Positions 3,458-6,796 of a stretch of 64,000 nt of DNA are shown piece by piece; the stretch's first letter is position 1, and every line of letters begins with the position of its first letter. The DNA is taken from assembly GCA_947496605.1 (NCBI GenBank), contig CANMDF010000004.1:186001-250000 (forward strand), in the 5' to 3' direction. This DNA comes from an uncultured Paracoccaceae bacterium. GTDB lineage: Bacteria; Pseudomonadota; Alphaproteobacteria; Rhodobacterales; Rhodobacteraceae. The translations under genes were made by a program, and so were the position numbers. The notes beneath the pieces were generated by a model. The model saw only the letters and a list, made by a program, of their open reading frames with translations. It was not told the origin of the DNA and ran no database searches.

Positions 3458-4243
3458 ATGCCTTTGAATTATGTTTCCTCCGCAAGGATAAGTCCGTACA
3501 AGAAGCACTGTAAGACCGACGCTGAAGCCATTGAACTACATAATGAATGTATGCTAATTGGCTCCGCACTCTTGTCTGTTATTTCAATGATCGAGATTGC
3601 TCTCCGAAACAGAGTGCATACACAAATTGCGAAGGATTTTGGCCGCCAAGACTGGCTTACAATTAATCCTTCACCCGTGCCCCTGGGGAGCAGCGAAACA
3701 AGCGCTATAAGCCAGGCCGTTAGGCAAGCACAGCAAGACAAGTATTCGAAGCTATCCAATAGTGATAAACTAAAGCTTAATGCAGTGGCCTATCCTCACG
3801 GTGTCCCACCGAATATCACTCACAAACGGCTTTCGAAGAAACGGCAAGAGAAAATAAGCGTTACCGAAGGTGAGGTCGTTGCACATACCACACTTTTTTT
3901 TTGGAAGCGTTTCTTTGCGCCCGAGTATGAACCAACTCTCTGGGATAGATCAGTTAAACGAACATTTCCAAACAAGACACTAGGACGGTCAGATGTCTCA
4001 GCACAAATAGAGATCATCTACCGAGCAAGAAATCGACTCGCTCATCATGAGCCAATGTATGGATTGCGATTGCGACAAGCAGTAAGCGCAGTCGACTTTG
4101 TTCGCCTAAACTTTGATAGCAAGTTTCCAGATCAAAACGGCCCACTCTGCATCTTCACACAATTCCAACACGACAATCTCATGGCTAAGCTCCACCATTT
4201 CGAGTCCCGATGGAAAGAGATCACTGGTTCAGAATCCAATTAA
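3458..4243 (+). CDS. Abi-like HEPN-domain protein (putative abortive infection)
   Basis: 261 aa, resembling the Abi_2/AbiD-F family, whose members are associated with abortive infection against phage. Visible family marks are the early helix ISMIEIALRNRVH (about residues 40-55) and the C-terminal RARNRLAHHEP (about residues 190-200), which supplies the R-x4-6-H motif of HEPN ribonucleases. By eye the gene is AT-richer than its neighbours, uses less typical codons (ATA, AGA, TTA) and has a weak ribosome binding site, which fits horizontal acquisition. It is a single gene between carB and a BrnA-like gene facing it, with no obvious partner. The family call is fairly secure; the antiphage role is inferred from the family. 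Confidence 0.75.
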   Translation: MPLNYVSSARISPYKKHCKTDAEAIELHNECMLIGSALLSVISMIEIALRNRVHTQIAKDFGRQDWLTINPSPVPLGSSETSAISQAVRQAQQDKYSKLSNSDKLKLNAVAYPHGVPPNITHKRLSKKRQEKISVTEGEVVAHTTLFFWKRFFAPEYEPTLWDRSVKRTFPNKTLGRSDVSAQIEIIYRARNRLAHHEPMYGLRLRQAVSAVDFVRLNFDSKFPDQNGPLCIFTQFQHDNLMAKLHHFESRWKEITGSESN

Positions 4244-4271: not shown

Positions 4272-4709
4272 TCACTCCTCCGCCTCATACCGCGCCAGCC
4301 GTTCCTCTATGTCCGCCTCCCATCGCTGTATGTTCCCCCACTCGGGCCGCTCCTCCATCGTTTTGTCCAACCGCTCGGGGTTCAGCGCATAATCTGTCGT
4401 GTCCGGCCCTTCGACAATCCCTGCCAGCCGGTAGTGCATGAACGCCCGCAGCACACGATTAATCCGCGGCTGATACCCCGGCCCCATCGCCTTAAAAAAC
4501 TTTACCACATCCGCGTCCAACCGGATCGTCACTGGCACCCGCTTGGGATCGCGCCGGTCCTCGTTTTGCCAGATTTCATCCCATTCGCGGGGCAGGCAGC
4601 GCAGTTTCATCGCCACGGAATGCAGGTCGTATTCGATCATGCGCCGCGCATCGACGGCATAGCCCCAGTTGATCCGCTGGGTCTTGGTCATCTTTTTGGG
4701 GTCGGTCAT
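4272..4709 (-). CDS. BrnA-type ribbon-helix-helix antitoxin-like protein
   Basis: 145 aa. Residues about 74-112 carry the BrnA-family signature: RVPVTIRLDADVV, then GPGYQPRINRVLRAFM, which in BrnA forms the DNA-binding ribbon-helix-helix part. The N-terminal 70 residues are an extra basic region and the C-terminus is acidic. I chose the ATG at 4709 because GGAG lies 7 nt upstream; the 12-residue longer frame from 4745 lacks this. Known BrnA antitoxins neutralise and, with BrnT, autorepress; no BrnT-like gene is adjacent, so this looks like an orphan regulator or antitoxin. The divergent intergenic region has an array of phased GTAC sites that could be its operator. Confidence 0.72.
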   Translation of the reverse strand: MTDPKKMTKTQRINWGYAVDARRMIEYDLHSVAMKLRCLPREWDEIWQNEDRRDPKRVPVTIRLDADVVKFFKAMGPGYQPRINRVLRAFMHYRLAGIVEGPDTTDYALNPERLDKTMEERPEWGNIQRWEADIEERLARYEAEE

Positions 4710-4769
4710 CGGGGCTCTCCTTTTGCGGTCCAACCTGTCGTGCAAAGGTAAAGCGGGTGATGACGCAGC

Positions 4770-4812
4770 GTACGTACGGGTTCTGTACGCTGTATGTACG
4801 GGTTATGTACGC
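4770..4812. promoter_or_regulatory. Tandem GTAC array, candidate operator
   Basis: Palindromic GTAC tetramers begin at 4774, 4785, 4796 and 4807, exactly 11 bp apart, with a fifth abutting at 4770. At the larger scale two 17-bp direct repeats, GTACGGGTTCTGTACGC and GTACGGGTTATGTACGC, are offset by 22 bp and differ at one base. The array lies between the divergent BrnA-like gene and the FabH-like gene. Phased short half-sites are typical of ribbon-helix-helix regulators; assignment to the BrnA-like protein is inference. Confidence 0.6.
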
Positions 4813-4877
4813 CGCGTTCCGGTGGACATTCCCGCCCCCTTCCCCCTAGGGTAGCCGCACCAATTTGAGGGGCCAGC

Positions 4878-5996
4878 ATGCACAACGTCGCGATCACCGG
4901 AACCGGGGTTTTCACGCCCTCTCAGACCATCACCAACGACGAATTGGTCGCCGCATTCAACAGCTACGCTGACCTATGGAACGCCGAGAATGCAGCCGCG
5001 ATTGAAGCAGGCACCGTCGAGGCCAAGACCCATTCGTCCAGCGATTTCATCCTTGCTGCCTCCGGGATTGAGCGCCGCTATGTCCTTGATAAAGAAGGCG
5101 TTCTTGACCCCGCCCGCATGTTCCCCAAGTTCACGCCGCGCGCCGACGACCAACCCGGTTTCATGGCTGAAATCGGCGTCGATGCCGCGCAAAAAGCACT
5201 TGCCGCTGCTGGTGTTGATGCGGGCGATGTCGATCTGGTGATTTGTGCCGCCTCGAATATGGAACGCGCCTACCCTGCAATTGCCGTGGAAATTCAACAG
5301 CTTCTGGGCGCAGGTGGTTTCGCTTTTGATATGAACGTCGCCTGTTCCAGCGCCACCTTTGGTATTCAGACAGCGGCCGACATGATCCGCTCCGGCTCAA
5401 TCCGCCGCGCATTGGTGATCAACCCCGAGATTTGTTCCGCCCATCTGGAATGGCGCGATCGCGACTGTCATTTTATCTTTGGCGATGTCGCGACCGCGAC
5501 CTTGCTCGAGCGTGACGAAGACCTCGACAAACCATATTTTAAGGTTCTTTCCACGCGCTGCGCGACCCAGTTCAGCAATAATATCCGTAACAATAACGGC
5601 TACTTACGCCGTACACAGGACCACATGGAAGACCGCCGCGACATGCAGTTCATGCAAAACGGGCGCAAGGTTTTCAAAGAGGTCCTTCCGCTGGTCAGCA
5701 AGCATATCGCGAACCATATGGCCGAAGAAAACGTAGCTGCCGCTGACTTGCGCCGCCTCTGGCTGCACCAAGCCAACAAAACGATGAACGACTATATTGG
5801 CAAAAAAGTCCTAGGCCGCACCCCCGAAGCAGGTGAACAACCCAACATCTTGCAAGACTACGCCAACACTTCATCCGCTGGCTCAATCATTGCTTTTTCC
5901 AAGCATTCCAATGACATGTCACCGGGGGACAAAGGGTTGATTTGTTCATTCGGAGCAGGCTATTCCGTGGGTTCTGTCATCGTTGAACGCGCTTAA
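4878..5996 (+). CDS. Beta-ketoacyl-ACP synthase III (FabH-like)
   Basis: 372-aa thiolase-fold enzyme of the KAS III type, which condenses an acyl-CoA or acyl-ACP primer with malonyl-ACP. The Cys-His-Asn triad is present: Cys in NVACSSATFG (about residue 155), His in WLHQANK (about residue 297) and Asn in DYANTSSAGS (about residue 330). It is about 50 residues longer than ordinary FabH (about 320 aa), the extra length lying partly in the N-terminal region (residues 30-100). The gene is monocistronic, apart from the tiny lipoprotein gene 15 nt downstream. It may be a second KAS III for special primers rather than the housekeeping FabH, which normally sits with plsX; neither is visible here. Confidence 0.85.
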   Translation: MHNVAITGTGVFTPSQTITNDELVAAFNSYADLWNAENAAAIEAGTVEAKTHSSSDFILAASGIERRYVLDKEGVLDPARMFPKFTPRADDQPGFMAEIGVDAAQKALAAAGVDAGDVDLVICAASNMERAYPAIAVEIQQLLGAGGFAFDMNVACSSATFGIQTAADMIRSGSIRRALVINPEICSAHLEWRDRDCHFIFGDVATATLLERDEDLDKPYFKVLSTRCATQFSNNIRNNNGYLRRTQDHMEDRRDMQFMQNGRKVFKEVLPLVSKHIANHMAEENVAAADLRRLWLHQANKTMNDYIGKKVLGRTPEAGEQPNILQDYANTSSAGSIIAFSKHSNDMSPGDKGLICSFGAGYSVGSVIVERA

Positions 5997-6011: not shown

Positions 6012-6086
6012 ATGAAAATCATCGTCATCACTGGACTATTGCTAACACTCGCTGCTTGCGGCGTACCATTCGTCCCCTTGGTCTAG
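6012..6086 (+). CDS. 24-residue predicted lipoprotein
   Basis: A very short ORF of 24 codons: MKIIVITG start, hydrophobic core, lipobox LAAC followed by G, then a mature peptide of only 9 residues ending VPFVPLV. The whole product is essentially a type II signal peptide plus a nine-residue tail, so if lipidated it would be an inner- or outer-membrane anchored nonapeptide. It lies 15 nt after the FabH-like gene on the same strand and its stop overlaps the stop of convergent arsH in a CTAG. The intact lipobox in such a short frame is the support; there is only a weak upstream AAAGAA as ribosome binding site. Confidence 0.6.
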
Positions 6087-6796
6087 TCACTGACGCGTTT
6101 GTGCACCTCAGCAAGTGTCTCAACCCGTTCTGAATAGCGGTTCGTCAGCATTGCACTGCGGCCCCGTGTCATGATCGTAAAGCGCGCCAACTCTTCCATC
6201 ACATCCACAATCCGGTTGTAGAGGGACGACGGTTTCATCCGTCCGCCCTCAAACTCTTTCCATGCCATCGGAACTGATGACTGGTTGGGGATCGTGATCA
6301 GGCGCATCCAACGCCCAAGAATACGTAACTGATTGACAGTATTGAAAGATTGCGATCCACCGCTGACCTGCATCAGCGCCAGCGTCTTGCCTTGTGTGGG
6401 CCGCATCCCGCCAATGGGCGACAATGGCAACCAGTCAATTTGCGTCTTCATGATACCCGTCATCGCACCGTGGCGCTCAGGGCTGGACCAGACCATGCCT
6501 TCGGACCAAAGCGCTAGTTCGCGCAACTCAGCGACTTTAGGATGATCGGCATCCGCATCATCAGGCAGCGGCAAACCGGAGGGATCAAAGAACTTCGTCT
6601 CACATCCAAGTGCCCGCAAAACACGTGCACCTTCTTCCGCACAAAGGCGCGAATAACTCGTTTCGCGCAATGAACCATAGAGCAAAAGGATACGTGGCGG
6701 ATGCTGCGGCGCGGCTGGCCCCGCCAAAGCAGCAATATCCAAAGGTTCAAGCGCACCCGACACCAGATTTGGCATATCGGACGTATCTATGCCCAT
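6083..6796 (-). CDS. arsH: ArsH-type NADPH-dependent FMN reductase
   Basis: 237-aa flavodoxin-fold protein. ArsH proteins bind FMN and reduce or oxidise arsenicals, quinones or metals; several oxidise trivalent organoarsenicals. The FMN phosphate loop is [12 protein letters not shown] (about residues 38-50) and the family segment [15 protein letters not shown] (about residues 102-117) and [21 protein letters not shown] (about 128-148, partially quoted) are intact. It starts by a TGATG coupling with the upstream HTH gene. No arsR, arsC or acr3 is adjacent, so an arsenic role is not supported by context beyond family identity. Confidence 0.9.

Follow-up and report, generated by a model that had tools for sequence, protein, structure and literature searches.

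KOPS are strand-biased chromosomal motifs made of short words (8 bp). Architecture IMparting Sequences are described in similar terms, as strand-biased words of 8 bp along the chromosome (PMC5993296). Among ribbon-helix-helix (RHH) proteins, MatP is described as having an RHH domain and, N-terminal to it, a further helical part; it acts in chromosome organisation through more than 20 dispersed sites (PMC12756933). CdbA of Myxococcus xanthus is reported as a nucleoid-associated RHH protein with 569 ChIP peaks and a modest effect on transcription (PMC7156744), and SegB of the Sulfolobales as an RHH protein for segregation, which has sites both at its own operon and at some 45 scattered positions (PMC12284271). 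For plasmid R1, the RHH protein ParR is described to bind 11-bp direct repeats in parC, at least two of which are needed (PMC9426499).

Here, we report on a ladder of GTAC cores phased at 11 bp beside an RHH gene in the window, i.e. the whole stretch of 64,000 nucleotides from an uncultured Paracoccaceae bacterium that was analysed. The explanation that we favour, and regard as fairly probable, is a strand-polar, chromosome-wide site system of the RHH protein that would serve chromosome organisation or segregation, with autoregulation at the protein's own promoter in addition. Such a system would resemble MatP-matS of the E. coli Ter macrodomain in its RHH domain with an N-terminal part and its dispersed chromosomal sites, whereas matS is described as lying in the Ter region (PMC12756933) and the present arrays have at least three units, an 11-bp phase, strand polarity and a genus-variable word. 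With CdbA it shares genome-wide sites, here recognised by sequence, and direct repeats about one helical turn apart; however, CdbA is characterised by moderate specificity and two repeats per site (PMC7156744), compared to an exact core repeated at least three times and strand polarity in our case. Sites at the own gene together with scattered sites are also reported for SegB, but its description includes a SegA partner and a 13-bp palindrome that is conserved across genera and mostly intragenic (PMC12284271), while here the word differs between genera. The 11-bp repeats are shared with ParR-parC, which is presented as one plasmid centromere (PMC9426499) and not as many chromosomal arrays. In contrast to the short strand-biased words mentioned above, the arrays are long, phased and accompanied by a putatively cognate RHH protein. 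The BrnA antitoxin family has the Pfam domain PF14384 in common with this protein, which differs by the absence of a BrnT partner, a longer N-terminal region and the ladder sites. ZapT was considered as a further relative and rejected, since it is described as a MerR-family protein (PMC7188993). In the open-licence papers that were searched, no description of the ladder or its RHH protein was recognised.

The ladder is located in a gap of 168 bp (4710-4877) between the RHH gene and a fabH-like gene. The features are:

4272-4709, minus strand: gene of the RHH protein, with the PF14384 domain and an N-terminal extension of ~45 residues that is conserved across the subfamily
4518-4538, minus strand: codons of the predicted strand VPVTIRL, marked out by covariation; P59, T61 and R63 (alignment columns 52, 54 and 56) are its predicted outward, base-contacting residues
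4747-4752, minus strand: TTTACC element between ladder and RHH start, found by eye
4770-4812, minus strand: 11-bp-phased ladder, indicated by repeats, shuffles, orthologous ladders and other ladders of the host genome
4807-4810, 4796-4799, 4785-4788 and 4774-4777, in minus-strand order: the phased GTAC cores, with the unit word GTACA[T/G]
4770-4773, minus strand: extra GTAC that comes after the four phased cores, at the GTACGTAC end
4878-5996, plus strand: fabH-like gene, the divergent neighbour, encoding a beta-ketoacyl-ACP synthase III (NF005703, E 2.5e-179)

All five GTAC palindromes (starts at 4770, 4774, 4785, 4796 and 4807) lie in this gap. Three copies of the spaced pair GTAC-N7-GTAC exist in the 64-kb window, all of them in the gap, with an expectation of 0.17 and none of 100 shuffles giving three or more. 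Within 4710-4877, the observed 11-bp self-match was matched by none of 2000 dinucleotide-preserving shuffles, likewise the 22-bp self-match, and five GTAC were attained by 8 of the 2000. An earlier note on this DNA had described five palindromes, four of them phased at 11 bp, which is confirmed by the shuffles as lying far beyond chance. It had also placed them in two 17-bp direct repeats 22 bp apart; the offset of 22 bp holds, but the repeats (4770-4790 and 4792-4812) measure 21 nt each at 90% identity. The neighbours are as it had named them, a BrnA-like RHH protein and a ketoacyl synthase, according to profile matches; the match to PF14384 (BrnA_antitoxin, E 3e-16) covers residues 55-103 of the 157-residue ORF. 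We placed the RHH start at an ATG, with its first base at 4709 on the minus strand, behind AAAGGAG, while the mechanically called ORF begins at a TTG at 4745. The core is palindromic, and the minus-strand direction of the ladder, which is that of the RHH gene, is our reading. A scan of 4600-5000 for promoters and terminators found none, including no sigma-70-type promoter. The TTTACC element may be a promoter element; in many genera and relatives, GTTAACC or TTTACC is found again in the interval from the ladder to the RHH start.

A close orthologue of the RHH gene is present in 15 of the 60 genomes searched, including the host (L001-L015). Upstream of these genes, GTAC or GTGC cores spaced by 11 bp are visible in most cases, with a degenerate array in L011, and more distant RHH genes at other loci of the same genus have ladders with the same step and other words (GTGCAC, GTCGG, GCATAAG). 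The search upstream of orthologues, which had been suggested as a check, thus returned the 11-bp step, though with a varying word. For a broader survey, a discovery set of 139 loci, a chosen part of the matches, was divided into 110 long-form and 29 short genes according to domain-model coverage, an imperfect separation in which the short class includes L011, although it is closely orthologous to the window gene, together with six loci of unconfirmed brnTA identity (L017, L078, L080, L081, L095, L115), and the long class includes three brnTA loci (L128, L130, L132). When periods from 5 to 40 were tested, 11 gave the best self-match in 79 of the 110 long-form upstream regions, compared to 2 of the 29 short-class upstream regions and 7 of 107 downstream controls. 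In a second, hold-out set of 139 distinct long-form genes, the best period was 11 in 93 and 22 in 20 more; other periods were best in 25/110 discovery and 26/139 hold-out genes. Within the Rhodobacteraceae, most members of this RHH subfamily have an 11-bp ladder upstream of the gene, with a word that varies (GTRCAC, ATGCAC, GTMTGG, GTCGG and others).

The variation of the word made it possible to ask which protein reads the ladder. The 11-bp units of different genes were compared at every circular shift, which made a register unnecessary, and each protein column was judged by how well it explains unit distance once the overall protein distance is removed; only genes with a ladder score of at least 16 entered these tests (32/110 discovery and 36/139 hold-out genes scored lower and were left out). 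Among the 78 discovery genes, column 52 ranked first of 92, column 81 second, column 56 third and column 54 sixth. The unfiltered hold-out set (103 genes) placed columns 52, 56 and 54 at ranks 1, 2 and 4 of 91, and a filter at 80% identity (n=61) at ranks 1, 2 and 3 of 91. Removing, in addition, the hold-out genes with more than 80% identity to the discovery set (n=50 remaining) gave ranks 1, 2 and 4 of 90, with r values of 0.603, 0.337 and 0.125 that were reached in 0, 0 and 49 of 1000 permutations, respectively. On the predicted RHH strand these columns fall at every second residue, namely P59, T61 and R63 of the window protein. In CopG, Arc and MetJ, alternating residues of the RHH strand contact bases, and the outward assignment of P59, T61 and R63 is presumed after these proteins. 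In a word table, whose register we seeded with ten words and whose word classes were picked after viewing, so that its Fisher values are no independent evidence and the register-free tests alone count, the strand triple R-T-R goes with GTRCAC in 56/64 genes, K-T-R with GTMTGG or GTCGG-type words in 24/28, R-T-A/S with ATGCAC in 12/16, K-T-Y with GTCGGT in 11/14, Q-T-R with GT[AC]GTGA in 6/7, R-T-L with ATATGA in 5/5, and the P- or S-T-R triple of the window type with GTACAT or GTACAG in 5/7. Exceptions include two P-T-R genes with ATAAG (L030, L173) and R-T-R genes with GTATGAC (L058, L326).

The adjacent RHH protein therefore very probably binds the ladder, and the covariation supports that the unit is read through the strand residues 59, 61 and 63. 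The earlier suggestion of an RHH neighbour that binds phased sites gains support in this way, as orthologue ladders recur and their word covaries with strand residues. RHH dimers would sit in a row on the ladder, one per 11-bp unit and on about one face of the DNA, with residues 59, 61 and 63 reading each unit. An AlphaFold monomer of the protein (mean pLDDT 76.2) formed no strand; Foldseek with this strandless model, a poor query, returned nothing significant (best E 1.5), and the family profile had no match among PDB sequences at E up to 1.

Three-copy ladders are not confined to the promoter of a target gene. In the host genome, in which a single RHH match was detected, GTAC-N7-GTAC-N7-GTAC occurs at 12 separate places including that of the window (16 overlapping hits per strand), with no hit for the reversed control. 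Among 44 genomes that were selected by RHH type, the GTGCAC-type genomes G031, G024 and G013 being tested with four other words only, three-copy patterns of GTACR were found in 10/10 genomes with the matching type and 1/34 others, of ATGCAC in 4/4 and 0/40, of GTMTGG in 7/7 and 2/37 (one hit each), and of GTCGGY in 10/11 and 0/33; reversed patterns gave 0-2 hits per genome and strand. Nine same-genus genomes without an RHH match had one hit in total across the four words (G001). The number of overlapping hits reaches 131 in G126 and 195 in G341, where one exact pattern alone occupies at least 57 distinct places; sparse matching genomes are G016 and G018 with two and three forward hits, G106 with two in all and G022 with none. 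Judged by sequence, there are thus many dispersed, putatively cognate sites per genome. One host ladder (L380) lies after an alpha/beta-hydrolase-like gene, at the spot where G031 and G024 have their RHH gene.

The orientation of the ladders agrees with the sign of the local GC skew, taken over 3-8 kb, in 68 of 71 cases from three genera, namely 20/20 sites in G204 (which has 70 overlapping hits), 28/30 in G341 (30 of 57 listed sites) and 20/21 in G291, partial samples in which sites sharing a contig are not independent (all 21 G291 sites lie on one). Agreement with the coding majority is found in 5/20, 17/30 and 13/21 of these sites, respectively. The G291 unit is C-rich and located on the G-rich strand, hence its skew agreement is not explained by unit composition. 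In the host genome with its palindromic core, three of the 12 sites cannot be oriented, and seven of the other nine agree with the skew, two of them barely (0.004, 0.011). Furthermore, gaps between sites were more even than uniform placement in G234, G204 and G341 (CV 0.63, 0.60 and 0.53; null fractions 0.0014, 0.0064 and 0.0000) and not clearly so in G291 (CV 0.79; null fraction 0.097), in a test on partial lists that used the listed sites for G204 and G341 and left out contig C4 of G291 and contigs C21, C22, C24 and C40 of G341. No runs of one strand were seen in G234, where 16 of 36 neighbours are alike with 18 expected.

Because the word matches the RHH type of the genome, the orientation agrees with GC skew in three genera and the spacing is over-even in three of four genomes, we regard the ladder in the window as probably one member of a dispersed, strand-polar array set along the chromosome. 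The main job of this set would be chromosome organisation or segregation, with the arrays as directional marks and the protein as a nucleoid-associated or centromere-like one, in the manner of MatP, CdbA or SegB. No ParA or ParM partner was noticed among the four window proteins scanned. The array at its own promoter would let the RHH protein limit its own synthesis, and such autoregulation is likely. A bystander effect on the divergent fabH-like gene is conceivable.

The main rival, which we consider rather unlikely, is a global transcription regulator, whose regulon would be controlled through the ladders as operators and would include the RHH gene itself as an autoregulated member. It holds this rank because several host sites stand just before genes, i.e. 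SRAP, lpdA, a methionine-synthase-like gene and a gene of the prfA cluster, several of the 12 being within ~70 bp upstream of gene starts, and the ladder in the RHH gene's own upstream region fits it as well. Moreover, two places are occupied in both the host and G204, each genome having its own word; one lies upstream of lpdA (L375/L392), the other close to the 3' end of an agmatinase gene (L372/L387). However, no functional theme was seen by eye among the 12 host sites, and crude gene calls for 30 sites of G341, the genome in which contexts were counted, put 12 between convergent, 15 between tandem and 3 between divergent genes. The orientation follows GC skew and not the genes, and the over-even spacing in three of four genomes also speaks against operators. 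In addition, a ladder lies inside valS (valine--tRNA ligase) in G204 and G291, hence in two genera. Both ladders occupy one aligned position of a variable stretch; one genus has GTATGG there and the other ATGCAC, and the frame is open in both. Of the shared places only this exact position was weighed, because gene sharing between the site sets had no null and several chance overlaps were roughly estimated.

The earlier note had read the ladder as a local operator that controls the BrnA-like gene together with the divergent fabH-like gene, which now appears improbable. The position in the divergent 168-bp gap agrees with it, as does the fact that each of the 18 close orthologues from the genus (L001-L015, L170-L172) has fabH in its locus, with a divergent arrangement seen by eye for L001-L015. 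Yet fabH (E up to 1e-60) occurs in 35 of 36 same-genus genomes, and among 30 such fabH loci an 11-bp score of at least 16 was reached in 13/15 with the RHH gene but in 1/15 without. This lone exception (L169, genome G009) has three GTGCAC units, and since G009 carries an R-T-R protein elsewhere (L018), it is consistent with a site retained in the absence of a neighbouring RHH gene. Many ladder-bearing RHH genes, also of other subfamilies, have no fabH in the locus. With RHH-less fabH usually free of ladders and host ladders at 12 places, control of fabH is unsupported and the proposal was demoted; an operator would be at best one role of a chromosome-wide site.

A family of dispersed repeats or mobile elements (REP- or MITE-like) in which the word is present by coincidence would account for the many similar arrays per genome, e.g. 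in G341, and for their frequent place in intergenic gaps. We take this to be very improbable, as there is little consensus beyond the array and array end in G204, G341 and G291, the same valS position holds a genus-specific word in an open frame, and the words track residues of one protein. An autoregulated BrnT/BrnA toxin-antitoxin pair, suggested by the PF14384 domain, is hardly credible and was rejected, since a BrnT-like ORF (one typed example was confirmed as PF04365) is absent from 246 of 249 long-form loci including that of the window (L001), the three with BrnT (L128, L130, L132) look like ordinary brnTA misfiled by the split rule, and the short class has BrnT in 14/28 loci yet period 11 as the best in just 2/29.

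Returning to the chromosome-wide site system, its most far-reaching version is that Rhodobacteraceae mark their chromosomes with strand-polar, 11-bp-phased arrays for a single RHH protein, and that changes in the strand residues are followed by a rewriting of the entire set, one site after another and with a fixed intragenic position included; we see the chances for and against it as balanced. If true, a chromosome-wide protein-DNA code would drift from genus to genus, with polarity and part of the site positions retained. If the favoured explanation is right, an abundant marine bacterial family would have a chromosome-organising system based on a protein labelled only as an antitoxin. The pairs of strand triples and words would then also offer a natural recognition code for RHH proteins, and an exchange of two residues would be enough to test specificity. 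A genome-wide site set that follows the change of its protein would also allow the rewriting of a whole binding-site set to be studied.

Several minor observations were made at the arrays and in the neighbourhood of the locus. By eye, the last unit of an array often deviates (L382-L401, L432-L461 and, for the host, L371-L381), with GTACGTAC or GTACATAC, with ATGCATACG or ATGCATATG, or with GTATGGC followed by an inverted GCCA, which resembles an inverted half-site at the terminus. Past the RHH gene's 3' end, an ORF of 261 aa (3458-4243, plus strand) has a weak match to Abi_2 (E 5.9e-4) below the cut-off of that family. On the other side, the fabH-like gene adjoins a gene for an ArsH-type arsenical resistance protein (6083-6796, minus strand; TIGR02690, E 8.4e-111). 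The only one of the 36 same-genus genomes without a fabH match (G035, L017) has fragments of the RHH gene, one match containing an internal TAG, and by eye these fragments sit directly after an ArsH-like coding sequence.
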